Of a stretch of DNA of 64,000 bases, positions 33,624-56,027 are shown in pieces. Within the stretch, counting starts at the first letter, position 1, and every line of letters begins with the position of its first letter. The notes under the pieces are model-generated. The model saw nothing but the letters and a program-made list of their open reading frames with translations, was not told the origin of the DNA and did not search any database. The stretch spans positions 186,001 through 250,000 of the forward strand of contig NZ_JNIO01000008.1 in the NCBI RefSeq assembly GCF_000702545.1, in the 5' to 3' direction. The translations under genes were made by a program, and so were the position numbers. The stretch comes from Selenomonas sp. AB3002. GTDB taxonomy: Bacteria; Bacillota; Negativicutes; Selenomonadales; Selenomonadaceae.

Positions 33624-34796
33624 ATGAAGAAATATTTTTTGGCGGGGCTGGCTGTGGTGTTCCTGTTGGCGGTGGGGCTGATATCATACGGCGCCTATCT
33701 CAATTACCATGACGAAAATCAGATCACGGAGCGTCTTGCCCAGCAGGTTCTTCCCCTGGCAGGGGAAAAAGCGAAGATACGCGACATAAGGCCTCGCTTG
33801 GAGATTGCACCGGTGCATCTTTCCTCTGGACAGATGGCAGACGCGGTTGCGCTGACCAAAGGGCAAATCGTCGAGGTCAAAGTTAAGAAAAATGACCGTG
33901 TCAGAATGGGCGACGTTCTCTTTGTCGTGCACATGCCCGAACTTTCTTCGCGACTCAAACAGGCTGATAGCAGTGTGTTCAAGGCCGAGACAGAACTCCT
34001 TCGCGCTCGCAACACCTATAATCGCTATACCGAACTGCGGAAAGAGGAAGCCGTATCGGCAGAAAAGTACGATGAGACAGAGAGTGCTTACCATGCGGCG
34101 CAGGCGAGTCTGGATGCCGCAATCGCGGCGCGGGATGAGCTTCTGGTGCAGCAGGAGGAGCAGCAGGTGCTGGCTCCCATCGACGGAGAGGTGATCAAGC
34201 TGTATCATCCGATGGGTACTTACATTTCGGCAGGGACTCCTCTGGCGCTGATCGGCAATTTTGAGCAGCTTCATTTCTATACGTCTGTAGACGAGAAAGA
34301 AGCCAGCTATCTTGCTTTTGGGCAGGAAGCCGTTGTTTCCTTTAGCTATGAGGACTTCGAAAAGGTGTACGGCACGGAATACAGTGCGGACAATCGTGGC
34401 AGGGAAGAAAATATCATCGCCCGCGTAATTGAGATTTCTCCGGATCTCTCCGAGCCGGCGGCCATACGCAAGGTGCTTTGGGAAATCGACAACAGGGCCG
34501 GTCTCCTCGAGCCGAAAACCTACGGAAGCCACGGAAGCGTCAGCCTCACATTCCTTGATTCCCGCAGATCTTTATCGGTTCCGGTTTCCGCTGTCATTGG
34601 CTCTTCCCAAGCGGCAGTTTTTGTCTTTCGAGATGATGGCACGTTGGAACGGCGCAGAGTGAAGACAGGTTTGAACGATGGAACGTATGTCGAAATTTTG
34701 TCGGGGCTGGAAGAAGGGGAGACGGTGGTCACATCCGTTCCCCAAGGGGTGAAGGAAAACATGAAAGTATCGCCCATACTGATATCCGGTGATTGA
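33624..34796 (+). CDS. Periplasmic adaptor (membrane fusion) protein, HlyD/RND type
   Basis: A 390-residue adaptor with one N-terminal membrane anchor (FLAGLAVVFLLAVGLISYGA), a lipoyl half (VALTKGQIVEVKVKKNDRVR), a coiled-coil hairpin (about 110-175, rich in Ala/Glu), the second lipoyl half (LAPIDGEVIKLYHPMGTYIS) and beta-barrel and membrane-proximal parts. It links an inner-membrane exporter with an outer-membrane channel, as expected in a diderm. First gene of the RiPP export operon; the next gene starts 14 bases on. It is extra compared with the minimal NHLP export set, which has a single HlyD-like protein. ATG behind GGGGAGTGAG. Confidence 0.85.
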   Translation: MKKYFLAGLAVVFLLAVGLISYGAYLNYHDENQITERLAQQVLPLAGEKAKIRDIRPRLEIAPVHLSSGQMADAVALTKGQIVEVKVKKNDRVRMGDVLFVVHMPELSSRLKQADSSVFKAETELLRARNTYNRYTELRKEEAVSAEKYDETESAYHAAQASLDAAIAARDELLVQQEEQQVLAPIDGEVIKLYHPMGTYISAGTPLALIGNFEQLHFYTSVDEKEASYLAFGQEAVVSFSYEDFEKVYGTEYSADNRGREENIIARVIEISPDLSEPAAIRKVLWEIDNRAGLLEPKTYGSHGSVSLTFLDSRRSLSVPVSAVIGSSQAAVFVFRDDGTLERRRVKTGLNDGTYVEILSGLEEGETVVTSVPQGVKENMKVSPILISGD

Positions 34797-34810
34797 GGAG
34801 GTGCTGATGG

Positions 34811-35767
34811 ATGGCCGACAAACAGCTATTTAGCCAGGAGGCGCTGGACAAGCTCCGCACGCCGGAGCGGCTTGACAAGATGCTTCCTATCACCACGCCG
34901 GTCAATTGGGTGGCCGCTGCTGCAATCGGTGTTTTATTGCTTGCCGTGTTGCTGTGGTCAATTTTCGGTGCTTTCACCGAAAAGACGGAAGGAATGGGGC
35001 TGATCATGGATTCAGCCGGCGTGATCAATGTCTCCCACATTGCAGGGGGAAAGGTGTCCGGCATCTATATCAGCACGGGCAGCTATGTGCATAAAGGAGA
35101 CCGCATCGTTACTCTGGAACAGGCGAACGAGACTGCCAATACGAACATGGCACGTTACAGTGTTGATTTGGCCGATAATGGCCGCGATACGGTGCGCTAT
35201 GCCTACGAATATGACATGAAACAATACCAGCAGGGCGTGAACATGGATGTTTACAGCGATTACGAAGGCATTGTGGATGAGGTAATGGTGGAAAAGGGAA
35301 TGTACCTGACCAGTGGGATGCCCATATGCTCGGTTCGTATCACGCAAAACCGCGACGAACTGTCCGGCATACTCTACATTCCCGTGGAGAAAGGCAAGCG
35401 GGTGGAACCCGGCATGACCATACAGCTTGCGCCGAACGGCGTAGATGTAAGCGAGACCGGCAGCCTGATTGGCGTGGTGCGCTCCGTTTCCCAATATCCA
35501 ATTTCGGGGCAGGGGGTAAAAATGGGGCTGGGGAATGTGGAACTGGCCCAATGGATTTTCGAGCAGAAGGGCAGAGCCCTGATTGAGGTACGCTTTGATT
35601 TGGTGCGTGACGAATCGTCAGAGTCAGGATATCTCTGGACATCCTCAGTGGGGGATCACAGCCCCATAACCCCCGGCAGTTTTTGCCGTGGCAACATCAT
35701 CATCGAGCGTATGCCGCCCATCGAAAAAGTTTTCTACAAAATAAGCCAGTGGGTAAGGTCAAGGTGA
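34811..35767 (+). CDS. NHLP-type secretion protein, HlyD family
   Basis: A 318-residue adaptor of the kind found in NHLP bacteriocin systems. Residues 1-30 (SQEALDKLRTPERLDKMLPI) form the cytoplasmic start typical for this group, then a membrane helix (VAAAAIGVLLLAVLLWSIFG), a first lipoyl half (GGKVSGIYISTGSYVHKGDR) and a second one (YEGIVDEVMVEKGMYLTSGM). The coiled coil is short. It works with the two ABC proteins that follow directly (the next gene is four bases on). Confidence 0.85.
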   Translation: MADKQLFSQEALDKLRTPERLDKMLPITTPVNWVAAAAIGVLLLAVLLWSIFGAFTEKTEGMGLIMDSAGVINVSHIAGGKVSGIYISTGSYVHKGDRIVTLEQANETANTNMARYSVDLADNGRDTVRYAYEYDMKQYQQGVNMDVYSDYEGIVDEVMVEKGMYLTSGMPICSVRITQNRDELSGILYIPVEKGKRVEPGMTIQLAPNGVDVSETGSLIGVVRSVSQYPISGQGVKMGLGNVELAQWIFEQKGRALIEVRFDLVRDESSESGYLWTSSVGDHSPITPGSFCRGNIIIERMPPIEKVFYKISQWVRSR

Positions 35768-35771
35768 GGGT

Positions 35772-37985
35772 ATGAGTTTTACGGACAGGATAAAATCCAT
35801 CTTCCCAAAGTCGCTCCGCATCAAGGTGCCGACGGTGCTGCAGATGGAAGCTACTGAGTGCGGCGCGGCATCTCTTGCCATGGTGCTCGCCTACTACGGG
35901 CTGTGGATGCCCTTGGAGAAACTGCGCGAGGAATGCGGCGTCAGCCGTGACGGCTCAAAAGCATCGAACATCGTAAAGGCGGCAAGGAGAATGGGATGCG
36001 AGGCCAAGGGGTATCGCTGGTCGGCCGAGAAGCTCAGGCAAAAGAGTTTCCCGCTGATTCTCCACTGGGAATTCAACCATTTCGTTGTTCTGGAAGGGTT
36101 CAAGGAAGATACCGCTTGCCTCAATGATCCGGCCCATGGGCGGCGGGAAGTACCGTGGGAGGATTTTCGCACATCTTATACCGGCATTGCTCTGGAAATC
36201 AAGCCGGGAAGCGAGTTTCGGCGAGCGGGCAAGCCGTACAGCATCGTGAGAGCAATGGCGAAAAAACTTCTGGCCGATCGATCGGCTATGCTCTTTCTCA
36301 TTCTCATCAATCTGGGGTTGATTTTCCCGGGATTGGCTACGCCGGTATTCCACAGAATCTTCATCGATGACATACTCTCCATGAAGCATGATGAGGAGTG
36401 GATGTTCAATCTCGTCATCGCTATGCTTGTGGCCGTCTGCCTGCTCATGGTCATGACCGCTCTCAGGCTGTTGGTACTTACCCGTTGGCAAAACAAACTG
36501 ACGGTTGCCGATTCTTCGGATTTTTTCTGGCATGTGCTGAGACTACCCATGCAGTTTTTCCAGCAACGCTTTGCCGCAGAAGTGGCCTCGCGTATCGCCT
36601 TCAACGAGGCAATTGCCGGTGTTCTGTCCGGCAGCGCAGCCACCGCCGTTCTGGATTTTTTTGTAGGGCTTTTTTTCCTCATGCTGCTCCTGCAGTACAG
36701 CGTGCCCCTTACGGTCATCGGGGTGACCTTCAGTCTCATCAATCTTGCGGTGTTCTTATTCCTGCGAAAAAAAATCACCGACATGAACCAAGGCATCCAG
36801 CAGGACCAGGGCAAGGAATATGGCACGGCCATGAACGGTCTCATGATGATAGAGACCATCAAGGCCAACGGTGGCGAAGCTGATTTCTTCGCCAAGTGGG
36901 CAGGCTATCGCACCAAGGTCCTCGCTGCCACTCAGACGAGGGATCTCTGGTCGCTGACGAGCATTGTGCTGCCGGTCTTTTTCGGCGGCATCAATACGGC
37001 GCTGATCATGACGCTGGGAGGCTTTTCCATCATGGATGGAGTGATGACGGCCGGCATTTTCCTGGCCTTCCAAAATCTCATGGGTAAATTTCAGGAACCG
37101 GTGAACAACTTGGTGGGTTTGGGGAATACGCTCCAGACGACGGAAATGCAGATGAAGCGATTGGACGATGTGCGCCGCTATGCCATCGACAGCCTGAACT
37201 ATCCGGAGGACAGGCAGCCGGCAAAGGCCGGGGAGAAACCCGCAAAAACCCGCCTGACGGGGGAACTGGAACTGGTGGACGTGAGCTTCGGTTACAGCCC
37301 GTTGGAGCCGCCGCTGCTGGACAATTTCAGTTTGCACCTGGAGCCGGGGTATTGGGTCGCCATCGTGGGGGGCAGCGGCAGCGGAAAGAGCACTCTCGCG
37401 AAGATTGTCACCGGCCTCTATGAGGAATGGTCGGGAGAGGTACGTTTCGATGGCATCAAACGGCGCGATCTATCCAGACAGGCCATCGTGTCCTCCCTGG
37501 CCTCAGTGGATCAGGATATTTTCCAGATTACGGGAACAGTACGGGAAAATATTTCCCTTTTCGACAGTTCTCTGGGGCGCGCCGATATCATGCAGGCGGC
37601 GAAGGATGCATGCATACATGATGACATATTGAAGCTGGACGGCGGCTATGAGGCACAGGTCAGCGAGGGAGGCGCGAATTTTTCCGGCGGTCAGCGCCAG
37701 CGCCTGGAAATCGCCCGCGCCCTTGCCGTGAACCCCTCCCTGCTTGTTCTTGACGAGGCCACCAGCGCGCTGGATCCGGTGACGGAACAAACCGTCCTGC
37801 AGAACATACGGCGCCGCGGATGCTCCTGCTTCATCATAGCCCATCGTCTCTCCACCATCCGCGATGCCGACGAAATTATCGTTCTGGAGAGGGGCAAGGT
37901 AGTGGAGCGCGGCACCCATTCTGAGATGATGGCCCATGATGGCCCGTATCGCCGCCTCATCGAAGAACAAGCAAAAGAGTCATGA
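35772..37985 (+). CDS. NHLP-type ABC exporter with C39 peptidase domain
   Basis: A 737-residue peptidase-containing ATP-binding transporter. The N-terminal C39 peptidase (residues 15-150) has its catalytic Cys in MEATECGAASLAMVLAYYG, His in HWEFNHFVVLEGF and Asp in LNDPAHGRR. It cuts leaders behind double Gly. Six membrane helices (about 170-460) and an ABC domain follow: Walker A GGSGSGKST, signature FSGGQRQRLEIARAL, Walker B LLVLDEATSALD. The precursors at 45238, 45631 and 46101 all end their leaders in Gly-Gly and are its likely substrates. Confidence 0.92.
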   Translation: MSFTDRIKSIFPKSLRIKVPTVLQMEATECGAASLAMVLAYYGLWMPLEKLREECGVSRDGSKASNIVKAARRMGCEAKGYRWSAEKLRQKSFPLILHWEFNHFVVLEGFKEDTACLNDPAHGRREVPWEDFRTSYTGIALEIKPGSEFRRAGKPYSIVRAMAKKLLADRSAMLFLILINLGLIFPGLATPVFHRIFIDDILSMKHDEEWMFNLVIAMLVAVCLLMVMTALRLLVLTRWQNKLTVADSSDFFWHVLRLPMQFFQQRFAAEVASRIAFNEAIAGVLSGSAATAVLDFFVGLFFLMLLLQYSVPLTVIGVTFSLINLAVFLFLRKKITDMNQGIQQDQGKEYGTAMNGLMMIETIKANGGEADFFAKWAGYRTKVLAATQTRDLWSLTSIVLPVFFGGINTALIMTLGGFSIMDGVMTAGIFLAFQNLMGKFQEPVNNLVGLGNTLQTTEMQMKRLDDVRRYAIDSLNYPEDRQPAKAGEKPAKTRLTGELELVDVSFGYSPLEPPLLDNFSLHLEPGYWVAIVGGSGSGKSTLAKIVTGLYEEWSGEVRFDGIKRRDLSRQAIVSSLASVDQDIFQITGTVRENISLFDSSLGRADIMQAAKDACIHDDILKLDGGYEAQVSEGGANFSGGQRQRLEIARALAVNPSLLVLDEATSALDPVTEQTVLQNIRRRGCSCFIIAHRLSTIRDADEIIVLERGKVVERGTHSEMMAHDGPYRRLIEEQAKES

Positions 37986-38001
37986 ATGAAGGAGAGTTCC
38001 T

Positions 38002-40707
38002 ATGAGGTTGATTGCCGGCGAACGATTGCGCCTGACGGATGAAGATAAATATGCCTTGGCGGTATCCGGCCGTATCGAGGTCTATGCCGTGACAAAAGAC
38101 AAGGATTCTTTCCGGCAGATGTTCCTGTTGGAACTGGCCGTTGGGGAGGCCGCTTTTCCGACGCTGGATGATCTTGAGCAGGTTGAAACACTGCTGTATG
38201 CGGTAGAAGATGCAGAAGTGGAACTCATCTCCTTTGAGATGCCTCCGCCGGAGAAAATCAAAGCACTCATGCAGGATTGGTTTTGCCATCTGGCAGACGG
38301 CATACCTTATCTGCGCATGATGGCAGATCGCGGAGACGATGTGCTCGCCCAGTGGGTTGACAGGAGCGTCTTGGGCACAGCGGAAAGCAGGGAAGAAATC
38401 CTCGATGGTTTCCGCCGCAACGAGGAGATTCTGTCCGCGCTGGTGGGGGTATATTTTGACTCACGGGATGATCTTTTGGAGCAACGCATGGAAGTGCGTG
38501 CCAAGTATCAGAGCAGGCTCATGGATGAGGCGCTCGGCCACCTTTTGCGTCAGGATGTCATGCACAGCGAGGCTGCACCCATCGGCAGCAAAAATCTGGA
38601 AGAAGTCACAGGGATTGTGCGCCAGGTAGCTCACCATTTTGGTATGCCCGTCGATAATATCAAGCTGGCACCGGAACTGAGCAGGAAACTTGATCAGGTG
38701 GGACTTCTTCGCCGCCTCATACAGAAAGGCGGCATGCAGATGCGACTTGTTACGCTGGAACGTGGCTGGTACAGGAAAGACAGCGGGGTGATGATAGGCT
38801 GGTACTCCGCTGCTTCCGGCAAAAAACGGAGACTGATCGCCATCCTGCCTGAAGCTCCGGGCCGGTACATCATCTGTACGGGGGACAATAATGGGGGCAT
38901 TCCTGTCACGGAAGATACGGCGAGCCACATCGAGCCAAGCGCCTTGGCCTGCTACGCAGGACTGGCAGCCCGTCCCTTGAGTCTCAGGGATTTGTTTCGC
39001 TTCATGTTGCGCCATAGCTGGCAGACAGACAGACGCTTTCTTATTCTTGTCAGCATTTTGGCCGGTCTGATCCCCTTGGTGACACCGATTATCACCGAGA
39101 CTATTTTTCAGGATATTATTCCCATTCTGGATCGTCGAGGCTTGGCAACTGTCACTCAGGTATCGGTGGTTTCCAGCTTTACGCTGGCAGCTTTTTCCCT
39201 TTGCCGGGCCCTTGCTATGCTGCGCATCACCACGGGGCTCGACATGGCCGTTGAGACGGCTCTCTGGGGGAGGCTCCTGGCTCTCCCCACGCAATTCTTT
39301 CGGCGATTTACCTCTGGCGAGCTGGCCAGCCGCATGATGGGGCTGGAGTCGGCCAAGACCCTGCTCTCCGGCAGCTTTGTGGAGACAGTCATGGGATTTG
39401 TGTTTTCCTTTTGGAGTCTCCTGCTCATGTGCTATTACAGCCTGAAGCTCACGGCTCTGGCTCTTGTCATTTGGGCAATTTATCTGGTCTTGCAGATCGC
39501 TATTTTCCGAAATGTCAAGAGGATACAGCGAAATCTGGTAACGGCCAAGAACAAGACGGCGGGCATTGTGCAGCAGATTTTTGCCGGCCTCGCAAAATTC
39601 CGCATCCAAGGCTCCGAAACCCAAGCCTATTATCTGTGGAGCAAGTTTTTCGGCGAAGAATGGGGCTGGAACTTGAAACTGCGCTGGCAAAATAATTACA
39701 GTACCATTCTGACGGATGTGCAGCCGCTCCTGCTGGCTCTTGTACTCTACTACGTTGCATACACCGACAGCGCGAAGGCGATTCTTGACGGGAAGCTGGA
39801 GGATGTCATCAGCAGCGCAACCTTCATGGCCTTTTCTGCTGCCTATACCGGCTACAATACGATGCTGGCCAAGGCGGTTCCCCTGGCCAGCCAGATCTTT
39901 TCCCTGCAGCCACTCCTGGAAAATCTGCAGCCCATTCTCGCCGAACAGCCGGAGGGGGCGGACGACCGTGTGGATGCCGGTGTCCTTTCCGGCGCCATCG
40001 AGGTGAGCCATCTTAGCTTTTCCTATGGGGAAGGGGCGCCGGAGATCCTGCATGATCTGAGTTTCCGCGTGGCGGCGGGGGAAAATATTGCCATCGTCGG
40101 CAAAAGCGGATGCGGCAAATCGACGCTGCTGCGCCTGTTGCTGGGCTTTGAGCAGCCGAAGATGGGATCGGTGCTTTTCGATGGGCAGGACATGGCCGAC
40201 CTCAATCCCACCTCCGTGCGCTCGCAAATGGGTATTGTGCTGCAAAATGGGCAGCTCATGACCGGCGATATCTTTACGAATATCGTGGGCCAGTCAGCGC
40301 TGACCATCAAGGATGCTTGGGCGGCTGCCGAGGCAGCGGGCATCGCAGATGATATCCGGCAGATGCCCATGGGCATGCAGACCGTCATCAGCGAGGGGAG
40401 CGGCAACATATCTGGAGGACAGCGCCAGCGGCTCTTGATTGCGAGAGCCCTGGCGGCAAAACCTGCCATCGTCATCTTTGACGAGGCCACCAGTGCTCTG
40501 GACAACCGCGCACAAGCCATCGTGACCGAGAGCCTGAATCGACTGAAAGCCACACGCTTGGTAGTAGCCCATCGTCTATCGACCATAAGGGAGTGCAACC
40601 GTATTCTGGTTCTGGAGCAAGGTCGCATCGCCGAAAGCGGCACCTTTGACGAGCTGGTGAAAAAAGACGGTATCTTCGCCAAACTGGTCAAGCGTCAGGT
40701 GGTGTAA
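38002..40707 (+). CDS. NHLP-type ABC export permease/ATPase, second subunit
   Basis: A 901-residue ABC exporter without C39 peptidase. The first 330 residues form the large N-terminal region known from this subunit of NHLP systems, with a cyclic-nucleotide-binding-like start (RLTDEDKYALAVSGRIEVYA). Membrane helices lie around 345-620, and the ABC domain has Walker A GKSGCGKST, signature ISGGQRQRLLIARAL and Walker B IVIFDEATSALD. It probably pairs with the peptidase-bearing half transporter. ATG behind AAGGAG, 16 bases after the previous gene. Confidence 0.9.
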   Translation: MRLIAGERLRLTDEDKYALAVSGRIEVYAVTKDKDSFRQMFLLELAVGEAAFPTLDDLEQVETLLYAVEDAEVELISFEMPPPEKIKALMQDWFCHLADGIPYLRMMADRGDDVLAQWVDRSVLGTAESREEILDGFRRNEEILSALVGVYFDSRDDLLEQRMEVRAKYQSRLMDEALGHLLRQDVMHSEAAPIGSKNLEEVTGIVRQVAHHFGMPVDNIKLAPELSRKLDQVGLLRRLIQKGGMQMRLVTLERGWYRKDSGVMIGWYSAASGKKRRLIAILPEAPGRYIICTGDNNGGIPVTEDTASHIEPSALACYAGLAARPLSLRDLFRFMLRHSWQTDRRFLILVSILAGLIPLVTPIITETIFQDIIPILDRRGLATVTQVSVVSSFTLAAFSLCRALAMLRITTGLDMAVETALWGRLLALPTQFFRRFTSGELASRMMGLESAKTLLSGSFVETVMGFVFSFWSLLLMCYYSLKLTALALVIWAIYLVLQIAIFRNVKRIQRNLVTAKNKTAGIVQQIFAGLAKFRIQGSETQAYYLWSKFFGEEWGWNLKLRWQNNYSTILTDVQPLLLALVLYYVAYTDSAKAILDGKLEDVISSATFMAFSAAYTGYNTMLAKAVPLASQIFSLQPLLENLQPILAEQPEGADDRVDAGVLSGAIEVSHLSFSYGEGAPEILHDLSFRVAAGENIAIVGKSGCGKSTLLRLLLGFEQPKMGSVLFDGQDMADLNPTSVRSQMGIVLQNGQLMTGDIFTNIVGQSALTIKDAWAAAEAAGIADDIRQMPMGMQTVISEGSGNISGGQRQRLLIARALAAKPAIVIFDEATSALDNRAQAIVTESLNRLKATRLVVAHRLSTIRECNRILVLEQGRIAESGTFDELVKKDGIFAKLVKRQVV

Positions 40708-40747
40708 CAACAGATGGTTTGTGGTATGCGTGAGGAAGGGATTTCTA

Positions 40748-41257
40748 GTGAACAACGAATTTTCTGAGGTTTGCCGAACTTGTTTCCGCCCTATATACAA
40801 CTACGTTTACGCCAGGGTACTGAGGCGCGAAACGGCAGAAGACATCACTCAAGACAGCTTTGCTTATGCGCTGGCTCACTGGGGAAATTACGATGCAGCT
40901 CGCGGCAGCCACCTTGCTTATCTGTACCGTATTGCTGCCAGCCGCCTGGCAGACCATTTCCGCAAAGCCTATTTGCAACGGGAGGTGCCGGCAGAGGATG
41001 TTCTGGAAATCGCCGACGGAGCTGCAGCGGCATTTCCCCCGGCCGGGGACGACACGCTGAAAAATCCCGTCAACCGGCAGGTGGAAAATATTTTGCAGCG
41101 GCTTACGGACAAAGAACGTGAGTTCCTGAGCCTTCGCTACGGCATGGAGCTGTCGAACCCGGAAATCGCGGCTCTCCTGGGCATCAGCGAGAAAGCGGTA
41201 AGCGAACGTTATCGTCGCCTTTTGGCCAAATGTTGCAGGATACAAAAAGAAGGATAA
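40748..41257 (+). CDS. ECF-type RNA polymerase sigma factor
   Basis: A 169-residue sigma-70 family protein with region 2 (CFRPIYNYVYARVLRRETAE, DITQDSFAYALAHW) and region 4 with a helix-turn-helix (LSNPEIAALLGISEKAVSERY). No region 1 or 3, so ECF type. I prefer GTG 40748, behind AGGAAGGG, over an ATG 27 bases earlier. No classical membrane anti-sigma factor follows; instead a small unknown protein and the RiPP enzymes come next, and an RsbV/RsbW pair lies 7 kb downstream. It may drive the precursor or enzyme genes. Confidence 0.85.
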   Translation: MNNEFSEVCRTCFRPIYNYVYARVLRRETAEDITQDSFAYALAHWGNYDAARGSHLAYLYRIAASRLADHFRKAYLQREVPAEDVLEIADGAAAAFPPAGDDTLKNPVNRQVENILQRLTDKEREFLSLRYGMELSNPEIAALLGISEKAVSERYRRLLAKCCRIQKEG

Positions 41258-41347
41258 AATTTTTCTGGAAATATTTTCGCAGCGTGGATTTACGGTGAAC
41301 TGTTGCGTATAGATAATAGGGTGGTTGGATTGAGGAGGTGGTTGCGC

Positions 41348-41557
41348 ATGGAAGCCGGGGAATGCTTTGGAGCCATCACGCAGGATATGCGGGAGATGGA
41401 TGCGTTGTTGCGGATGGCCGATTTTTCCTCCGAAAGCCACTTTTTGGAAACCATGCTGAAGCGGCTCTCAGTAAGCGACGAACTGCAGGATGACGAGCTC
41501 GATGATGTGGTCGCTGCTGCCTGTCTCCCACAGAAGTCGGACAAAATTTACAGGTAG
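41348..41557 (+). CDS. Small protein with leader-like C-terminal motif
   Basis: A 69-residue protein between the sigma factor and the first radical SAM gene. GAGGAGGTGG precedes ATG 41348. It is acidic and helical (AITQDMREMDALLRMADF, HFLETMLKRLSVSDELQ). The last part, DDELDDVVAAACLPQKSDK, looks like the end of a double-Gly leader (compare DEDLEAVAGG in the third precursor) but with Ala-Ala-Ala for Gly-Gly and an 11-residue Cys-bearing tail. It could be a divergent precursor, a regulator of the sigma factor or a peptide-binding helper. No family recognised. Confidence 0.6.
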   Translation: MEAGECFGAITQDMREMDALLRMADFSSESHFLETMLKRLSVSDELQDDELDDVVAAACLPQKSDKIYR

Positions 41558-41571
41558 GTGTTATCAGAACA

Positions 41572-44206: not shown

Positions 44207-44224
44207 CTGGGAAAGGACAAGATC

Positions 44225-45984: not shown

Positions 45985-46035
45985 CGAGGCAAGAAATGTC
46001 CCCGACTTCTATAAGTTGATGAAAGGCCGAGATGA

Positions 46036-46075
46036 AGTTTTGCCTACGGCAAAACTGGAACAATGGCCTTATAAT
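46036..46075 (+). promoter_or_regulatory. Promoter with palindromic operator of precursor 3
   Basis: Perfect palindrome AGTTTTGCC-TAC-GGCAAAACT (46036-46056), then GGAACAATGGCCT and TATAAT (46070-46075). The right arm covers the -35 place at 18 bases. Same design and near-same bases as at uppP and the TVP38 operon. Confidence 0.65.
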
Positions 46076-46100
46076 TTATTTTTCTAAAGGAGAATGAAAA

Positions 46101-46415: not shown

Positions 46416-46501
46416 TGATTTCGATTAGCTTCGCAAGGTTCTTCCGCCGGTCTGTACGGCGGCAGGAGCTTGCTGATGGCCGAAACAACATACTGGAACA
46501 T

Positions 46502-46526
46502 AAAGCCCCTCATCCTTGGGGGCTTT
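46502..46526 (+). promoter_or_regulatory. Hairpin between precursor 3 and the B12 radical SAM gene
   Basis: AAAGCCCC (46502-46509) pairs with GGGGCTTT (46519-46526). It directly touches ATG 46527. The T tail is weak (TATGTTTG), so it may be a partial terminator, a message-stabilising stem or a block to the ribosome site. It would let much precursor and little enzyme be made from one transcript. Confidence 0.6.
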
Positions 46527-48488: not shown

Positions 48489-48529
48489 CCGAAGTTTCGC
48501 ACGGAGTTTTGTGAAGGAGTTTGAGTGCT

Positions 48530-48862
48530 ATGAGAAATGAAGTTGCCTACAAAGAAGAAAAATTGGCAAACGGATGGTTCATCCTGGGCGTGCAGGGACA
48601 GGTGAATCGCCTTACTGCCGACGGGGTTTATCAAAAGGGGGAGGAAGTCGTGTCCAGGGAGGCGCGGACAGCCATTGACCTGAGCGGTGTGGACTATTTG
48701 TCCAGCGCCGGCATCCGGGTGTTCTTGAGGCTGCTCAAAAAGGCGAAGAAGGAAGGCAAGGAGTTTACGGCAGTGGGGGCAGCGGGGGATGTGAAAAGCG
48801 TGCTGGAGGACAGCAATATGGCAACGCTTTTGCATATGCGCGATACCCGGGACGATTTGTGA
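48530..48862 (+). CDS. STAS-domain anti-sigma factor antagonist (RsbV-like)
   Basis: A 110-residue STAS protein. TAIDLSGVDYLSSAGIRVFL holds the Ser that the partner kinase phosphorylates in RsbV/SpoIIAA proteins. In the unphosphorylated state these proteins bind and sequester the RsbW-type kinase. GAAGGAG lies before ATG 48530. It follows the B12 enzyme gene at 42 bases and comes just before the kinase gene, so the switch module is linked to the RiPP operon. Confidence 0.9.
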   Translation: MRNEVAYKEEKLANGWFILGVQGQVNRLTADGVYQKGEEVVSREARTAIDLSGVDYLSSAGIRVFLRLLKKAKKEGKEFTAVGAAGDVKSVLEDSNMATLLHMRDTRDDL

Positions 48863-48875
48863 AGGGGACGATGAA

Positions 48876-49364
48876 ATGCGGCCGAGCGGTGACTGGAAGC
48901 AATATGAGGCAACCGATGAAATGTACGTCAGCATGCTGGAGGACATCATGTCTGCTGCCCAAAAAGCCGGAATCCCCAAGACCCAGGAAACCAGGCTGAC
49001 GCTGGGCGTCGAGGAAATGCTGGGCAATATCGTAGATTATGCCTATGAGGGGCACGGCCCTATCTGGATCAGAGCTGGGCTGGAAGGCGATTTTTTCCGG
49101 CTGGATTTCGCCGACCACGGCCATCCCTTCAATCCCCTAGCCAAGGATATGCGGCATGAAGAGGGCCTGCCCGTGGAGGAGATGGAGGAAGGGGGCTTCG
49201 GCATTTACTTCGTGCGGAAATACTTTGATAGGATGGAGTACGACTACCGCGACTTTCAAGGGAAAAAGGCCAATATTCTTTCCCTTATGCTGAAAGTCCT
49301 CGGGGGTTCATCCCTAAGTTCCGGCGACGACGAAGCGTCCCTTGCGGAAGGGGAGGATTCATGA
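48876..49364 (+). CDS. RsbW-like serine kinase / anti-sigma factor
   Basis: A 162-residue GHKL ATPase of the RsbW/SpoIIAB kind. The N box is VEEMLGNIVDYAYEG, the G1 box DFADHGHPFNP and the G2 box EEGGFGIYFVRKYFD. Such kinases hold a sigma factor or another partner and phosphorylate their STAS antagonist. No sigma-B type factor lies in the window; the ECF-type factor at 40748 is the nearest candidate, though RsbW proteins are not known to hold ECF factors. The stop overlaps the start of the first phosphatase (ATGA). Confidence 0.88.
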   Translation: MRPSGDWKQYEATDEMYVSMLEDIMSAAQKAGIPKTQETRLTLGVEEMLGNIVDYAYEGHGPIWIRAGLEGDFFRLDFADHGHPFNPLAKDMRHEEGLPVEEMEEGGFGIYFVRKYFDRMEYDYRDFQGKKANILSLMLKVLGGSSLSSGDDEASLAEGEDS

Positions 49365-51586
49365 AGGTATCCATCAGGACACGCGTATCCCTGGTGCTGA
49401 TTGGCTTTGCGGGTGTGATTCTCATGCTCGCTTTTGCGGCAGCGCTCTACGGCATGGCCTGGGGCAGGGATTTCGCCACCCATTATGCCAAAGAAATCAG
49501 CAACAGCTCCATCCACAACAGCTCCGATACCATTGTCTCCATGCGGCGGAATGAACTGCTCACCCTTGTTGAGCAGACTGCCGCCGGCATTGACGAATTC
49601 ACCACCGATGTCCGCCGTGACGTTCACCTACTGAAACTTGAGATGGAGCGTATCCTGGCAGACCCGGAGGGCTATAAGAGAACACCCGTACCGGCGGCTA
49701 GGCCGGAGCAGGTCCTCGATGAGAACATACCTATAGAGGAATACGGCGATAGGGTATTTTCCTTCATCACCTATGCTCCGGGGATAGATCCTGCCTCCCT
49801 CCAAGAAGAGATTGCCGTGACTTCAAACATCCAGGATTTCCTGATTGCTTTTTCTGAACGGGCGGTGCAGCGGGGAGCTCATCAGACCGGCGTGCTGGGG
49901 GCAAAATCCGGTTTTCTCATGAAGGCTGATGTGGGAGCCTCTCCTCTCAATCTGGAATTCAGACAAAGCGCCTGGTACCGTGCCGCCATGGAAAAGGGAG
50001 AGCTTGCTTTCACTCCCGTATATCGTACCCAGGGCAGGAAAATCGAAGCAGCCATAGCCTGCACAGAGCCATACAGCAAGGACGGGGAGGTCATGGGCGT
50101 CATAGGCTTTGGCATGGGACTGGAGGAGCTGTCAAAGCTCATGCGGGATGACCTGGACACCATCATAGAGGCCAATCAGGACGGCATCAATTTTTTGCTG
50201 GATGAGCGGGGGAAGGTTATCTTCTGCCAATATGAGGAAGGCAGCCAGGATGAATTTTTGGCGGATTTTTCCTCCCAGGCAGTAAGGTCAGCGGACTTTC
50301 CCAAGATTGAAAACACTGTTTTTATGGATGCCGTGGATGAAATGAGAAACGGGGCCAAGGGCGTTGTCAGCTTTGAGCAAGACGGCAAGGGCTATACCTT
50401 TGCCTATGTGCCGGTAAAGGGTATGGGCTGGTCTGTGGGGGCCGTTATTCCCATGCCGACGGTGGAGGTTCTGGCCGAAAAGAACCGTCAGCAAATCCTC
50501 GCTCTTACGAATGAACATATTCAGGAACTGGAAGCGACCATGGGGCAGCGCAACCTGTGGTTCGCGCTGATAATCCTGCTGCTGGCCGCTTGGGGATTGT
50601 ACGGGGGAAGGAGGCTCTCCGACCGCCTGGTCAGACCGTTGCTGAATCTTCGCAATGGCATCAACTCCATCGCCACAGGAGATTTTGACCATAGGATTGA
50701 GATTGCTACCGGGGATGAAATCGAGGAAGTGGCGGATGCTGTCAACTCCATGACCGTCGAGCTCAAAGCCTATATAGAGAAATTGAAGAAAATCACTGCC
50801 GAGGAGGAACGCATCCAAGCGGAACTGGACACAGCCAAAGGCATACAGGTGGGGATGCTTCCCCATGTCTTTCCCAGACATACAGCCTTTGACATCTTCG
50901 CCTCCATGGAAGCGGCCAAGTCGGTGGGGGGAGATTTTTACGATTTTTATTTTCTGGATGAGAATCATTTTGCCATTACCATTGCAGATGTATCCGACAA
51001 AGGCGTAGCCGCCGCGCTTTTTATGGCTAGAGCCAAGACCATCCTCAAAAACGGCGCACTGTCAGCCAGGCGCCTGGCAGCCGGCGCAGAAACCGACTGG
51101 GGGCTGGTTGTGGCCCAGGCCAACAACCAGCTGTGCGAGGACAACGACGAGATGCAGTTTGTGACGGTGTTCTTCGGGGTGCTGGATTTGGAAACGGGAG
51201 AATTTTCATATGTGAACGGCGGGCACAATCCTCCCCTTTGGGGGCATGGCCTGGGCGAAAGAATGGTTTGGGAGTATCTGCGGCAGGAAAAGAGGAACAA
51301 TATGCTGGGGGCAATCGAAGAATCGGAATATGATACCGTGAGGCTCACCCTTTCGCCGGGAGATATGCTTTATCTCTACACGGACGGCGTGACCGAGGCC
51401 ATGAACGAAAAGCAGGAGCAATATTCCGAACGCCGTCTGCATGAGGTTTTGACCCGGATCGCTCAAGGTGGAAAATCCTCCGAGGATATTATTTTGACAC
51501 TCCGGGCAGATATGAAGGAATTTGTGCAAGACGCGGAGCAGTCCGATGACATCACCATGCTGGGGGTGAGGTTCTTGGGAGTATGA
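49361..51586 (+). CDS. Membrane dCache-HAMP-PP2C phosphatase 1 (RsbU/SpoIIE type)
   Basis: A 741-residue sensor phosphatase. A membrane helix (VSLVLIGFAGVILMLAFAAA), a periplasmic dCache-like region (about 40-375, with WYRAAMEKGELAFTPVY), a second helix (LWFALIILLLAAWGLYGG), a HAMP linker (DRLVRPLLNLRNGINSIATG) and a PP2C domain follow. The metal motifs are intact: GGDFYDFY, IADVSDKGVAAALFM, YTDGVTEAMN, SDDITMLGV. It should strip phosphate from the STAS antagonist when its outside sensor is triggered. Its last 40 bases belong to a 112-bp repeat found again behind phosphatase 3. Confidence 0.88.
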   Translation: MKVSIRTRVSLVLIGFAGVILMLAFAAALYGMAWGRDFATHYAKEISNSSIHNSSDTIVSMRRNELLTLVEQTAAGIDEFTTDVRRDVHLLKLEMERILADPEGYKRTPVPAARPEQVLDENIPIEEYGDRVFSFITYAPGIDPASLQEEIAVTSNIQDFLIAFSERAVQRGAHQTGVLGAKSGFLMKADVGASPLNLEFRQSAWYRAAMEKGELAFTPVYRTQGRKIEAAIACTEPYSKDGEVMGVIGFGMGLEELSKLMRDDLDTIIEANQDGINFLLDERGKVIFCQYEEGSQDEFLADFSSQAVRSADFPKIENTVFMDAVDEMRNGAKGVVSFEQDGKGYTFAYVPVKGMGWSVGAVIPMPTVEVLAEKNRQQILALTNEHIQELEATMGQRNLWFALIILLLAAWGLYGGRRLSDRLVRPLLNLRNGINSIATGDFDHRIEIATGDEIEEVADAVNSMTVELKAYIEKLKKITAEEERIQAELDTAKGIQVGMLPHVFPRHTAFDIFASMEAAKSVGGDFYDFYFLDENHFAITIADVSDKGVAAALFMARAKTILKNGALSARRLAAGAETDWGLVVAQANNQLCEDNDEMQFVTVFFGVLDLETGEFSYVNGGHNPPLWGHGLGERMVWEYLRQEKRNNMLGAIEESEYDTVRLTLSPGDMLYLYTDGVTEAMNEKQEQYSERRLHEVLTRIAQGGKSSEDIILTLRADMKEFVQDAEQSDDITMLGVRFLGV

Positions 51587-51660
51587 ACGCTCTGCTCGCC
51601 GATATTATGGATGGGCAACGCACCGCGTATGCGGCGGAATGGAGTGGCTGACATTGATGA
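51549..51660. repeat. 112-bp direct repeat, left copy
   Basis: Covers the end of phosphatase 1 (DITMLGVRFLGV and stop), the gap and the start of protein 2. It matches 55990-56101 with only two or three changes. Confidence 0.85.
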
Positions 51661-53855
51661 AGACGGGGAAAATGGATATCGGCAGACGCATGCTGCTCAC
51701 GTTTCTGGCAGTGGCATTCCTGGCACTTTTTTTCATCGGCTTGCTTTTCCTTCGCGGTTTTTGGGCGATATGGGAGAATACGCAAGAGGACGGTGCACAT
51801 CTTTCGGAAGCCTCCCTGGCCTTTGCAGAGGACATGGCGATGAGTCGAACGCGGGAGCTGCTCGAAAAGACTGCAGCCGATAAGGCGCAGCAGGTGGAAC
51901 TGGCTCTGGAGGTTCTCCGTGAGGACACCCAGTACATGGCCGATGCCATGACAAGCATCCTGACCCATCCGGAGAGGCATAAGCCAAGGCAGCTCCCCAT
52001 GTATACCCCAGAACTTATGGCCTCCGGCCGGGCATACCTTCTTGTCACCCCCGCAGTCAGGGAGGATTGCGGCAGCGAGGAAGCCAGAGAAGCCGTCCTC
52101 CTCTCTGCCAATGGCGTCGATACATTGGAAGAGATGGGGTATTTTTATGCTGGCTACCAGACATCCATATATTATGCCTCGAAATATGGCCATTTCATTG
52201 GCATGATGATGCTGGCGGAGGGTGAAGAATATGCTCCTTTGGTCACATACGGCGATGATTACAATCCCAGGCAGCGCCCGTGGTATCAGCGCGTTGTCGA
52301 GACCAGAGCACCGGGGTTCACCGATGTGTACATGGCGGTGGATGGCTTCCCGGAAATCACCTGCTCCGCCCCGTATTACGATGCAAATGGCCTGGCCGGG
52401 GTTGCTGGGATTGACATAAGTCTGGATGCGCTGTATGACATTGTTTCAGATACCACCCTTGGCCGGTCGAACATCAATTTTGCCCTCACTTCCAAAGGGG
52501 AAATCTTGTTCTCCTCGGAGAAGGAGGGAGCGCTGGCCGTCGGCGATGGCCGGCGGAATCTGTGCAAGGCATCGGACGAGGGCCTGGCACGGGCGGCAGC
52601 GGACATGGCAAAGGGGGCAAGCGGCACGGCCCTGGTGGAACTCGATGGGGAGGAATATTATCTTGCCTATGCCCCCATACCCTCCGAAGGCTGGAGTCTC
52701 GGCACCATGCTGAAAAAGTCGGAGGTGCTGGAGCCAGTGACGGACATGGAAAGCGAGCTGTCGGCACGGGCGGAGGGCTTCGACGAATCCATGCGCTCGC
52801 TGTTCATAGCGAACCTTTTGAAAATCATCCCTGTTCTCATGGTCATGTGCGCCCTGTTTGTCTATAAAAGCCGCCTTGCAGCACAGCATTTCGCCCGTCC
52901 CTTTTTGGCATTGGCAGAGGGCGTAGGGGAGATTGCCAAGGGAAACTTTGACAAGAAGATAGACATAAAAACCGGCGATGAAATCGAGATGCTTGCGGAT
53001 GCCATCCATGGCATGGCGGCAAAGCTCAAGGAACATGCGGCAAACCTGGAGACGGTCACGGCGGAGAAGCAGCGGGTCGCTACGGAGCTTTCTCTGGCGC
53101 AGGGCATCCAGGAAAGCATGCTGCCAAAGATTTTCCCAAAGTTCTCGGGCAATCCCCACTATGACCTTTCGGCCAGCATGAAGGCTGCCGAAGAAGTGGG
53201 CGGGAATTTTTACGACTTTTATATGATAGATGATGAGCACATGGCGCTGACGGTGGCGGGGGTATCCGGAAAGGGCGTTCCGGCAGCCCTGTTCATGGTG
53301 GCGGCAAAGGCCATGCTGAAAAACGATGCCCTGGCGGCAGCGATGGAACGCGGCCCGGGCAAAGCTGATTGGGCGAAGGTCATGAGCCGGGTGAACTGCC
53401 AGATATGCGAGAACAACGATTACACGATGTTCATGACCGTTTTCTTCGCTGTGCTGAACCTGGCGACGGGGGAGCTCATCTGCGTGAATGGAGGCCACAC
53501 TCCGCCCTTCCTTGGGCGCGCATCGGCAGGAAATACCGAATGGCAGCCGCTCCGGGATGAGGGAAAGAAATACGTTGTAGGCATCTTCGAAGAGGCGGAA
53601 TATGCGGAAAAGCGGCTGAGGCTGCACCCGGGCGACCTGCTGTTTCTCTGCACGGAGGGAGTAGCCGGGGCCATGGGCGCGGACGGAAGCCCCTATACAA
53701 AAAAACGTCTGCAGGAAACCCTGTGCCGCACAGGTACGGCGGATATCAGCATGGAAAAGCTGCTTGCTTCTGTGCAGGCAGATATCGACCGTCATGTGGG
53801 AGGCGCCGGGCAGCGGGATGACCTCACGATGCTGGCCATCCGTTTCCTGGGGTGA
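51657..53855 (+). CDS. Membrane dCache-HAMP-PP2C protein 2, probably catalytically dead
   Basis: A 732-residue protein with the same plan as its neighbours: membrane helix (LLTFLAVAFLALFFIGLLFL), periplasmic sensor with RQRPWYQRVVETRAPGFTDV, second helix (ANLLKIIPVLMVMCALFVYK), HAMP and PP2C domain. Three acidic metal-ligand motifs are changed: GGNFYDFY for GGDFYDFY, VAGVSGKG for IADVSDKG and CTEGVAGAMG for YTDGVTEAM. Only RDDLTML is kept. It may be a pseudophosphatase that binds the antagonist or dimerises with the active ones. Start chosen at ATG 51657 (MKTGKMDIGRRM). Confidence 0.85.
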   Translation: MKTGKMDIGRRMLLTFLAVAFLALFFIGLLFLRGFWAIWENTQEDGAHLSEASLAFAEDMAMSRTRELLEKTAADKAQQVELALEVLREDTQYMADAMTSILTHPERHKPRQLPMYTPELMASGRAYLLVTPAVREDCGSEEAREAVLLSANGVDTLEEMGYFYAGYQTSIYYASKYGHFIGMMMLAEGEEYAPLVTYGDDYNPRQRPWYQRVVETRAPGFTDVYMAVDGFPEITCSAPYYDANGLAGVAGIDISLDALYDIVSDTTLGRSNINFALTSKGEILFSSEKEGALAVGDGRRNLCKASDEGLARAAADMAKGASGTALVELDGEEYYLAYAPIPSEGWSLGTMLKKSEVLEPVTDMESELSARAEGFDESMRSLFIANLLKIIPVLMVMCALFVYKSRLAAQHFARPFLALAEGVGEIAKGNFDKKIDIKTGDEIEMLADAIHGMAAKLKEHAANLETVTAEKQRVATELSLAQGIQESMLPKIFPKFSGNPHYDLSASMKAAEEVGGNFYDFYMIDDEHMALTVAGVSGKGVPAALFMVAAKAMLKNDALAAAMERGPGKADWAKVMSRVNCQICENNDYTMFMTVFFAVLNLATGELICVNGGHTPPFLGRASAGNTEWQPLRDEGKKYVVGIFEEAEYAEKRLRLHPGDLLFLCTEGVAGAMGADGSPYTKKRLQETLCRTGTADISMEKLLASVQADIDRHVGGAGQRDDLTMLAIRFLG

Positions 53856-56027
53856 GTGGGAGTGGATCAATCAGTGCTGAAGAAGATGAATATCTATCGC
53901 CGCTTTTTGCTGTATTTGTTATCGGCAGGGCTTCTCTCTTTCCTTGCCTTGAGCGCTGTTTTCCTTTGGAGCCTGTACGATGCCAATCAAAAAGCGGTAC
54001 AAAACGGCAGGGATATGGGAACTGCCGTCGAAACCACCATAGCGGGCATGGATGCCTATTTTGCCAAGCAGCAGCTGCTCCTTTTCGCTCAGGGCAAGGC
54101 GCAGTTCATGGATTCCGAGCTTCGTACTTTTGGGGCAGATACGCAGCATATCGCCATGGAAATGGAGCGGCTCCTGTCCGCTGCGGGACAGTACAGGCCA
54201 AGAGAGCTGAAACGTGCGGGAACCCAGCCGGTCATGCCGGGAGAAGCGTGCATCTACTACTCGCCGGAGATACGCAGCCAGGAGGCAGAAAACGCGCTTC
54301 GGGGCGAAATCGGCATCGCCTCCGGCATTGCCGATATTTTGGAGAACACGGCAGGATTCTATGCGGCGGAGGGATGTGAAGGATGGTTTGCCGTGGCTTC
54401 GGAAAAGGGATATTATATCACCGTCAATATCTCGCCCAGGTACCGGGAATATGTGGAATTCAGCCCGGAATTTCTTGCTGGTTACGTTCCGAAAGATGCT
54501 CCCTGGTATCGGGACGCTGCCGGAACGGGCAAGCTTGCCATCAGCGATGCCTTTGTGGACAAGAACAGAGGCTTGCCGTTCCTTTCGATTTCCATGCCAT
54601 ATCGCGATGGAGAGGGATTTGCCGGAGTAGCGACCATCAGCCTCAGCGTCCAGTCCATGTACGAGTTCATCGTGAATAGCACCAGGGGTGGATCCGGCAT
54701 CAGTTTTGCCGTCAATGGCAAAGGCGATGTGATGCTTTCCTCCCTCTCCGGCAGACAGGATTCCCCCCAAGACCGGGAAGCCATGCTTGCGGCAGCGGCA
54801 CGCAGCGTGCTCAGCAGCAAGAGCCAGGCAGTCAAGACAAGCCTGAACGGAGAAAACTATTATCTTGCTTCTGTGCCGCTTCCTTCTGTAGGCTGGAAAT
54901 TTGTCACGCTGGTCAAGGAGGCACAGACCGCATCTGCGGCAAGGGAGGCACGAAGCAGGGTGGAGGCGCAGAAGGAAGCCTTTGCCTCGGCAATGGATGC
55001 CTTTTTCCGGGACAAGCTGTGGGAAATGGCGCTGCTGCTGCCCGTGATTCTGGCAATCCTGGCACTGCTCAGCAGGATGGAGGCCAAGCGATTTTCAAGG
55101 CCCGTCCTTGCGCTGACGGATGGCGTCAAAACCATAGCAGAGGGCAATCTCGACCATAGGCTTGAGATTCGGACGGGGGACGAGATCGAGGCGTTTTCGG
55201 ACTCCGTCAACCGCATGACGGCAGACCTCAAGGAATACATGGCAGCTGTTTCCGCAGCTGCGGCGGAAAAGCAGAGCATCGCGACGGAGCTTTCCCTGGC
55301 GCAGGAAATTCAGGAAGGGCTGCTGCCGAGGGTGTTTCCCCAAGCTTCGGACAGCAACCGCTTTGAGCTTTTCGCCACCATGGAGGCTGCCAAGATAGTG
55401 GGCGGGGATTTTTATGACTTCTACCTGCTGGACGAACAGCATCTGGCCGTTACCATTGCCGATGTGTCCGACAAGGGCATACCTGCGGCCCTGTTCATGA
55501 TGTGCAGCAAGACCATCCTCAAAAACATTGCCCTGACAGGTGTCGGGGCAATGGGTTATGACGCTGTCATGAACCTGGCTAACAGGCAGCTTTGCGAGGA
55601 CAATGATGAGATGATGTTCGTGACGGTGTTCTTCGGGGTGCTGGATCTTGAAACGGGGGAGCTTGCCTACGTGAACGCCGGCCACAATCCGCCCCTCCTG
55701 TGCCATGGGGGAGAGTTTACCTATCTGCGCATGGAGCAAAAGAGCAGCATGCTGGGGGCGGTGGAAGATGAGGTCTACCTCGAGCACCGTTTGACCCTGG
55801 CGCCGGGGGATATGCTCTTCCTATACACGGACGGGGTGACGGAGGCGATGGATGCCCAAGGGAAACAGTATTCGGAAAGGCGGCTTTGCGAAACGCTGAA
55901 CGCTTGCAAGGAAAAGAATGTGAAGGAAATCCTGGCCTGTGTGCGTGAGGACATGGCAGCCCACGTTGGGGAGGCGGAGCAGTCCGACGACATCACCATG
56001 CTGGGGGTGAGGTTCTTGGGAGTATGA
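53856..56027 (+). CDS. Membrane dCache-HAMP-PP2C phosphatase 3
   Basis: A 723-residue sensor phosphatase. Membrane helix (FLLYLLSAGLLSFLALSAVF), periplasmic sensor region with PWYRDAAGTGKLAISDAFVD, second helix (MALLLPVILAILALLS), HAMP (FSRPVLALTDGVKTIAEGN) and PP2C domain with intact metal motifs GGDFYDFY, IADVSDKGIPAALFM, YTDGVTEAMD and SDDITMLGV. The sensor part differs clearly from that of phosphatase 1 while the last 13 residues are the same at DNA level. GTG 53856 is taken as start directly behind the previous stop; ATG 53886 is an alternative. Confidence 0.87.
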   Translation: MGVDQSVLKKMNIYRRFLLYLLSAGLLSFLALSAVFLWSLYDANQKAVQNGRDMGTAVETTIAGMDAYFAKQQLLLFAQGKAQFMDSELRTFGADTQHIAMEMERLLSAAGQYRPRELKRAGTQPVMPGEACIYYSPEIRSQEAENALRGEIGIASGIADILENTAGFYAAEGCEGWFAVASEKGYYITVNISPRYREYVEFSPEFLAGYVPKDAPWYRDAAGTGKLAISDAFVDKNRGLPFLSISMPYRDGEGFAGVATISLSVQSMYEFIVNSTRGGSGISFAVNGKGDVMLSSLSGRQDSPQDREAMLAAAARSVLSSKSQAVKTSLNGENYYLASVPLPSVGWKFVTLVKEAQTASAAREARSRVEAQKEAFASAMDAFFRDKLWEMALLLPVILAILALLSRMEAKRFSRPVLALTDGVKTIAEGNLDHRLEIRTGDEIEAFSDSVNRMTADLKEYMAAVSAAAAEKQSIATELSLAQEIQEGLLPRVFPQASDSNRFELFATMEAAKIVGGDFYDFYLLDEQHLAVTIADVSDKGIPAALFMMCSKTILKNIALTGVGAMGYDAVMNLANRQLCEDNDEMMFVTVFFGVLDLETGELAYVNAGHNPPLLCHGGEFTYLRMEQKSSMLGAVEDEVYLEHRLTLAPGDMLFLYTDGVTEAMDAQGKQYSERRLCETLNACKEKNVKEILACVREDMAAHVGEAEQSDDITMLGVRFLGV

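Follow-up and report, generated by a model that had tools for sequence, protein, structure and literature searches.

The stretch analysed here, called the window throughout, comprises 64,000 nucleotides of the genome of Selenomonas sp. AB3002, a rumen bacterium (contig NZ_JNIO01000008.1; G000:C8:186001-250000 of the 3.67 Mb genome G000). Its positions 33,624-56,027 hold a single row of plus-strand genes, defined by open reading frame (ORF) coordinates and family models, in which an NHLP peptide exporter, an extracytoplasmic function (ECF)-type sigma factor, the enzymes and three NHLP precursors of a ribosomally synthesized and post-translationally modified peptide (RiPP), RsbV, RsbW and three dCache-SpoIIE proteins follow one another. 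A sequence-only reading of this DNA had already named these genes as one same-strand row, with which the family models and ORF positions agree; the small gaps and overlaps it had noticed range from -140 nt, if the longest PoyD frame is taken, to 116 nt. It had missed a small gene behind the sigma gene (41,348-41,557), altered metal-site motifs in the second phosphatase, and a NamZ-like remnant at 56,080-56,496.

The row opens with the periplasmic adaptor MFP1 (33,624-34,796; RND_mfp TIGR01730, 179 bits) and the NHLP secretion protein MFP2 (34,811-35,767; TIGR03794, 226 bits, cut-off 156), followed by the exporter ABC1 (35,772-37,985; TIGR03796, 992 bits, cut-off 853), which carries a C39 peptidase domain (PF03412), and the exporter permease/ATPase ABC2 (38,002-40,707; TIGR03797, 735 bits, cut-off 709). 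ABC1 with its C39 domain, ABC2 and the HlyD member thus all exceed the curated cut-offs of an NHLP export system. The sigma factor (40,721-41,257; PF04542, PF08281; TIGR02937, 77 bits, cut-off 42.9) has regions 2 and 4 only, as an ECF sigma does, and belongs to clade B of the sigma tree described below. Directly after it lies a gene for a 69-aa protein (DFSS...DELDDVVAAAC), here called SMALL, whose start was set by eye from its ribosome site and which was tentatively assigned by a family model.

The RiPP cassette contains, as the sequence-only reading had stated, three radical S-adenosylmethionine (SAM) enzymes of different classes: a SPASM maturase (41,572-42,888; PF04055 and TIGR04085, with TIGR04463 under its cut-off), a PoyD-like epimerase (longest frame 42,749-44,206, real start judged by eye at about 42,854), and a B12-binding C-methyltransferase (46,470-48,488; TIGR03975, 501 bits, cut-off 282). 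The epimerase has a CxxxCxxC motif, seen by eye, and reaches 294.5 bits with TIGR04517, slightly below the cut-off of 325; of the proteusin-type components, the C-methyltransferase and the three NHLP-leader precursors (45,238-45,561, 45,631-45,984 and 46,101-46,415; TIGR03793, 56.5, 56.1 and 68.3 bits, cut-off 50.9) score above theirs. The protein formerly described as GNAT-like with two halves is a 315-aa GNAT-type protein (44,225-45,172) in which PF00583 matches residues 216-292, within the second half. Neither a tRNA nor an Rfam match at gathering level was found in the window.

RsbV (48,521-48,862; PF01740) is a STAS protein with the acceptor region DLSGVDYLSSAG, in which the conserved serine of the SSAG motif is kept, the residue that we take to be phosphorylated. 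RsbW (48,876-49,364; PF13581, 63.9 bits) keeps the nucleotide-site motifs of a HATPase_c_2 kinase; the RsbW equivalog models fall far under their cut-off for it (30 against 145 bits), as do matches to named single-function members. No sigma-B/F-type sigma occurs among the genes of the row, where the ECF-type sigma is the only one. The three dCache-HAMP-SpoIIE proteins (PF07228, PF02743 and PF00672 in the first) are PP2C1 (49,361-51,586), PP2C2 (51,639-53,855) and PP2C3 (53,856-56,027). The SpoIIE motifs that presumably form the metal site are intact in PP2C1 and PP2C3 and have lost residues in PP2C2 (GGN, AGVSGKG, CTEG), which is likely, from its sequence, to be a pseudophosphatase. Neighbouring dCache-SpoIIE pairs with one copy bearing the metal-site motifs and another without them also occur in L047, L051, L127, L159 and L181. 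Kinase and phosphatase belong to one module, since an RsbW domain ends one dCache-PP2C protein in A. lipolyticus DSM 3074, where the fused gene lies between RsbV and sigma beside the exporter, and likewise in G112. Such dCache-HAMP-SpoIIE-RsbW fusions, of about 850 aa, are seen in L087 and L221 (one contig of A. lipolyticus DSM 3074) and in L181.

The proximity of exporter and Rsb genes extends well beyond the window. Within the genus, where NHLP exporters are numerous, 12 of 23 long SpoIIE genes in four genomes lie no more than 20 kb from an intact ABC2, where genome share would predict about 5% (7/10 in G000, 4/6 in G001, 0/3 in G002 and 1/4 in G005). The SpoIIE and ABC2 places were read by hand, and the count omits G003 (320 contigs; its six long SpoIIE genes all lie on contigs that lack an intact ABC2) and G004, which has no intact ABC2. 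The binomial value is 2e-10 and, the genomes being related, it denotes strong enrichment rather than a probability. On this enrichment, chance neighbourhood is rejected as the likeliest reading, with the proviso that counts from related genomes are not independent.

RsbV and/or PP2C genes adjoin the exporter in L039, L047, L049 and L051 (genus g1), in L087 and L181 (g3), and, in further genera, in L095 and L109 (g11), L120 (g19), L123 (g20), L127 and L129 (g22) and L183 (g29). The named strains A. lipolyticus DSM 3074 (L221) and Selenomonas sp. AE3005 (L208) have exporter, sigma, RsbV and PP2C together. Outside this family, three of eight Synergistaceae-type loci (L256, L257 and L261, of L249, L252, L254-L257, L261 and L262, several of them short) have RsbV with RsbW and/or PP2C adjoining the exporter. 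A class-wide sample of 71 exporter loci, chosen for assembly room and genus spread with Rsb content not looked at beforehand, contains sigma in 34, SMALL in 29, RSBV in seven, RSBW in three, PP2C in eight and any Rsb part in ten; at most two matches were scored per genome in the underlying survey, so that its per-genome numbers are lower bounds. An overlapping set of 44 named loci, each read for 9 kb or more beyond ABC2, contains sigma in 29, SMALL in 25, RSBV in ten, RSBW in five and PP2C in eight, anywhere in the stretch. The order of the Rsb genes varies: they lie upstream in L198 and L244 and downstream in the window, L039 and L127. In G271 (L244), RsbW and PP2C precede the exporter, and RsbV was not seen after the cargo in the ORF list read by eye. 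The accompanying RiPP genes likewise differ, or are absent, among the exporter-Rsb loci of several Selenomonadaceae genera and Synergistaceae. Other species show similar wiring next to related export genes, so the pairing is probably no accident and serves a function. The link looks real, yet most exporters do without it.

The window itself is a mosaic. Compared with contig C27 of a related species, G001, its DNA is 98.4% identical at 48,510-49,298 and 98.5% identical at 51,623-56,944, where that contig ends. The common block (48,510-56,944, 98% DNA identity) therefore spans RsbV, RsbW, PP2C2, PP2C3 and the NamZ remnant, and excludes 49,299-51,622, that is PP2C1, which is absent from G001. Beyond the block the exporter is about 66% identical in DNA and the sigma 35% identical in protein; PoyD, GNAT, precursors and C-methyltransferase have no match at E 1e-5 in the compared G001 locus, which has SPASM genes instead. 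This contrast in identity implies one history for the exporter/cargo block and another for the Rsb block and right flank, with a junction at about 48.5 kb. Simple inheritance of the block, with 98% as the species background, is disfavoured by the identity of about 85% at other loci common to G000 and G001 (84.8% for L047-L051, 84.6% for L041-L045), and recent exchange between species of the block together with the right flank is likelier. Pieces of G001, G002 and G003 match the flank at 57-64 kb with 98-100% identity, and the whole of 48,510-64,000, at that level of identity to pieces of these three genomes, looks like a recently exchanged stretch. The junction means that one switch can be joined to different products.

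These findings bear on the proposal that the partner switch controls an unlinked function and stands here by local gene history, such as a mobile right flank. The sharing of the block and its apparently recently exchanged flank by the window and G001 fits that proposal, as do the many exporters with no Rsb part in the stretch read and the failure of long SpoIIE genes to lie near an intact ABC2 on the same contig in fragmented G003 (0/6) or in G002 (0/3); the reappearance of the pairing in several genera, and in a second phylum, with differing gene orders, and 12/23 against an expected 5%, speak against it, and we regard it as quite unlikely. In a collection of plasmids neither the locus DNA nor RsbW found a match, and viral contigs gave one distant ABC relative.

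On the left, G003 is 96.7% identical to the window at 30,716-33,314 and then continues with an exporter and SPASM genes resembling those of G001. The left edge of the row is marked by a plus-strand serine resolvase gene (32,629-33,240; PF00239); the 3' part of this resolvase (32,861-33,314) is 98.9% identical in G003 and 72% in G001. A serine resolvase also stands directly before MFP1 in L134 (19,436-19,870), an otherwise distant locus with a common enzyme set, and the resolvase is a possible agent of cassette movement. Just beyond PP2C3, the plus-strand remnant at 56,080-56,496 joins a duplicate of the PP2C2 start, recognized by eye, to pieces of a NamZ-like exo-muramidase (PF20732), and is also present in G001. 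Elements of about 55 bp at 46,020-46,074 and 60,034-60,088 recur in other loci, genomes of the genus holding numerous copies of the second, and a small contig of the window's own genome contains broken NHLP exporters (L052, G000:C6:1-20000).

L134, from another genus, is also the closest relative of the window enzymes (protein identity 54-76% for the exporter, 69% for SPASM, 60% for PoyD and 58% for the C-methyltransferase). It has no sigma between exporter and cargo, and its C-methyltransferase gene is followed by a TolC-like gene, identified by eye, rather than by RsbV; the contig ends about 1 kb further on. Between exporter and RiPP cargo, at 8,682-11,983, it carries genes that by eye resemble an acyl carrier protein, two ketosynthases and a short-chain reductase. 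The sequence-only reading had joined a proteusin-like locus to the switch: the link between exporter and Rsb genes stands, recurring above chance in several Selenomonadaceae genera and in Synergistaceae, and its tie to proteusins is not supported. The Rsb link goes with the exporter and sigma system, and is neither proteusin-specific nor general.

SMALL of the window is probably a divergent member of an unnamed family linked to the sigma factor. The window protein scores 43.9 bits with a model that includes it and 20.5 bits (E 4e-4 among 22,860 ORFs) when left out, and it lies between sigma and SPASM, as do the clear members in L044 and L180; it has no Pfam or NCBIfam match, nor do members of the family have any such match common to more than one of them. 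SMALL is carried by 102 of the 380 genomes of the class at E 1e-6, 98 of which also have NHLP ABC2 at E 1e-170. With loci fetched around SMALL left out, it lies within 10 kb of 42 of 48 sigma genes (within 500 nt of 18), and a sigma lies near 43 of 44 SMALL genes; over all loci the figures are 58/64 and 59/65, 16 of the 58 being in SMALL-fetched loci. Overlapping or partial stretches (from L052, L155 and L158-L163, not all of them every time) were dropped before these counts, and likewise before the distance comparison, the sigma tree and the box analyses of stretches upstream of SMALL and in clade B. Pairwise distances between SMALL proteins follow those of the sigmas (r 0.83 over 43 loci, 0.74 given MFP2), against 0.08 for C39 given sigma. 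Because SMALL co-diverges with sigma and not with C39, a sigma partner such as an anti-sigma is favoured over a plain export substrate, and from these sequence relations SMALL is probably an anti-sigma. Its predicted structure has helices (mean predicted local distance difference test score, pLDDT, 64) and has no fold match in the PDB; an EH-domain profile match (E 5e-4) was discounted as a presumably fortuitous resemblance between helices.

The end of SMALL, ELDxVAAAG followed by a variable tail, resembles a leader-core junction, and this raises the alternative that SMALL would be the precursor of a RiPP or a pheromone, with a leader ending in that motif and a short variable core, serving as substrate of the SPASM enzyme and exporter. 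Such a role would suit its position as immediate neighbour of a SPASM gene in the window, L044, L180, L181 and L183, and the promoter box it has in common with genes for peptides with double-glycine (GG) leaders. It accords poorly with the residues that end the leader-like part, which are AAAG in most members, AAAC in the window and elsewhere AAAS in place of the GG or GA expected before a cleavage site, and with distances that track sigma rather than C39. Eight g11 stretches (L164-L171) moreover have the sigma-SMALL pair with no match to exporter or SPASM, adjoining glgB, by eye, in L164, L167 and L169, and the SMALL relatives of L145 and L150 (family f25), of about 120 aa, have a C-terminal zinc ribbon, recognized by eye, replacing the variable tail. 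We consider the precursor role rather doubtful.

The distribution of RsbV follows the sigma phylogeny. In a tree of 63 sigmas, with clades cut by eye, A1 and A2 together have 46 members, clade B, which includes the window, has eight, and nine are others (among them L123 and L095, which have RSBV). RSBV occurs in 10 of 16 A2 loci, the same ten having PP2C (L159, counted here, was fetched for its SpoIIE genes), and in none of 30 A1 loci, two of which have PP2C; among loci fetched by the exporter alone the values are 6/11 for A2 against 0/19 for A1. A gap of about 10 nt separates sigma from RsbV in L051.

Promoter boxes follow the same division: the promoter dialect is that of the sigma clade. 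The clade A1 box, TGTAAYA-N15-CGTATR, is found upstream of SMALL, with 27 of 61 SMALL upstream stretches scoring 11-13 of 13 against 0.5 expected from shuffles, and shows no excess upstream of sigma, MFP1, RSBV or PP2C. The exact pattern has 164 matches in 30 genomes (present in 27 of them) against seven for a reversed control. Among 81 sites read, including a few duplicates (L274 and L301 overlap), 36 precede a GG-leader ORF by no more than 130 nt, six stand before SMALL, and 19 lack any ORF with a ribosome site in that range; random anchors gave a GG-leader ORF at 17 of 3000. The clade A2 box, TRTAACA-N14-GGGATA, has 27 matches against seven in the control, in 13 of 29 genomes, and by eye these stand before SMALL (eight), GG-leader genes (eight), apparent signal-peptide proteins (four) or nothing clear (seven). 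As both boxes were defined on stretches upstream of SMALL, independent evidence comes from the GG-leader matches alone; many of the sites are orthologs of one another in related genomes. The boxes suggest, from sequence, that each system's own sigma would transcribe SMALL and scattered GG-leader cargo genes. Cargo proteins compared in sets of six and of five had no Pfam or NCBIfam match above cut-off, and exported peptides not named by any family model can be sought through the boxes. L310 (G153:C28:46200-49740) has a tandem array of five GG-leader genes, with a box in front of each. In the window's genome, three near-identical GG-leader proteins (122-aa frames; L302-L304, at G000:C7:52800-54300, C7:59000-60500 and C8:432200-433700) each lie behind TGTAATA-N15-CGTATG, and the one tested has no Pfam or NCBIfam match.

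We propose that the locus belongs to a recurrent export system, here loaded with cargo, whose partner switch targets the sigma/SMALL pair, with a probability of roughly 0.47. The pair is taken as the target because RsbV follows the sigma clade and adjoins sigma in A2 loci; for the window this supposes that clade B works like A2. Three blocks would cooperate. The radical SAM enzymes would probably epimerise, C-methylate and otherwise modify the precursors, which ABC1 would cleave with its C39 domain before export. Transcription would depend on the ECF sigma and its partner SMALL, probably an anti-sigma. A periplasmic ligand, or its absence, would alter the dCache domains of PP2C1 and PP2C3, which would then dephosphorylate RsbV; free RsbV would capture RsbW, and RsbW would let go of the target (most likely sigma with SMALL), as a result of which cargo would be made only with the cue present.

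Several observations weigh against this proposal. The search of relatives recommended by the sequence-only reading found a recurrent neighbourhood, and it also found RSBV in only 5 of 18 loci of the genus and no Rsb part in 61 of 71 class-wide exporter loci (8-20 kb read, 12 stretches shorter than 19 kb), which partly matches what had been named in advance as a sign of chance. Several A2 loci (L047, L051, L127 and L129) have RsbV and PP2C with no match to RsbW. The Rsb block and flank look recently exchanged, so that their joint presence with the exporter is no evidence of long conservation, and SMALL of the window is a weak family member, its E value rising to 0.008 with a model that excludes the second clade-B row as well; both considerations lowered our estimate for the proposal and raised that for local gene history. 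Both strands of the window lack the A1 and the A2 box, and a two-box search of 44 upstream stretches yielded no shared clade B promoter, only runs among close relatives or scattered ones. Finally, the same RsbV/RsbW (98%) pairs with sigmas of 35% identity in the window and G001, which is awkward if RsbW docks on sigma, and the Synergistaceae loci L256, L257 and L261 have no match to the sigma or SMALL models.

These last two points make a serious rival of the possibility that the switch gates the export step, with RsbW or RsbV acting on the exporter or an accessory protein and transcription left to sigma and SMALL. One Rsb block with two different sigmas, three Synergistaceae loci with exporter and Rsb genes and no match to a window-type sigma, and 30 A1 loci with a sigma and no RsbV speak for such gating. 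The exporter too differs across the mosaic, however (66% DNA identity), which would require one switch to suit more than one exporter as well, and RsbV tracks the sigma clade; export gating is less likely than a switch that targets the sigma/SMALL pair.

Taken singly, NHLP exporters, proteusin enzymes, ECF sigmas and Rsb switches are all known. Described NHLP/proteusin clusters (TIGR03793/03794/03796/03797; PoyD-type) have the same exporter, leader and C-methyltransferase families as the window, together with the epimerase family to which its PoyD-like enzyme comes close; the window adds the ECF sigma, SMALL and the dCache partner switch. With RsbU-RsbV-RsbW, SpoIIAA-SpoIIAB-SpoIIE and SiaA it has in common a STAS protein with the SSAG acceptor, HATPase_c_2 and a membrane SpoIIE phosphatase; unlike these, its sensors are dCache-HAMP, three in number with one degenerate, and only an ECF sigma is nearby. 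NepR is a very small protein. EcfG-NepR-PhyR is described as an ECF sigma with an antagonist and partner switching (PMC8103513). No PhyR was seen in the window, and the likeness of SMALL to NepR is limited to size and predicted helices, with the pLDDT and the lack of fold match given above.

The closest working analogue is the Btr system of Bordetella, in which, according to two papers, the ECF sigma BtrS, its antagonist BtrA (BspR) and the SpoIIE/STAS/kinase switch BtrU-BtrV-BtrW serve one secretion machine (PMC7498569, PMC10732220), BtrU and BtrW being described as a switch acting on secretion (PMC7498569). One locus thus combines sigma, antagonist, partner switch and secretion machine. The likeness is by description only, and the machine differs, being a type III injectisome, which secretes BtrA with a chaperone, rather than a peptide ABC exporter. 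The portion examined of the 2010 paper on the NHLP family (PMC2887384) does not contain the words sigma or phosphatase, and that of a survey of RiPPs in anaerobes (PMC4289311) mentions neither Selenomonas nor a sigma factor. The earlier statement that no described case of an NHLP cluster with an Rsb switch in one locus was known to its author holds among the matches listed from open-access PubMed Central (PMC) papers, subscription literature lying outside; nor did those matches include the combination with a sigma.

The co-occurrence of sensor, switch, sigma with a small partner, and exporter, with readable boxes in two sister clades and named carrier strains, makes cue, regulon and cargo directly testable. 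To our knowledge, how RiPP or GG-leader export is switched on in Gram-negative gut bacteria is largely unsettled. A more far-reaching picture, which we hold to be distinctly improbable, is a Selenomonadaceae circuit in which periplasmic dCache sensors and the partner switch would set an ECF sigma governing a genome-wide set of GG-leader proteins exported by a dedicated NHLP exporter, and in which SMALL would be an anti-sigma that imitates a leader and cannot be cleaved (ELDxVAAAG), so that the state of the exporter would feed back on the sigma. If true, SMALL would be an ABC-exporter counterpart of FlgM or BtrA, and the whole a signal-to-secretion circuit of undescribed kind.

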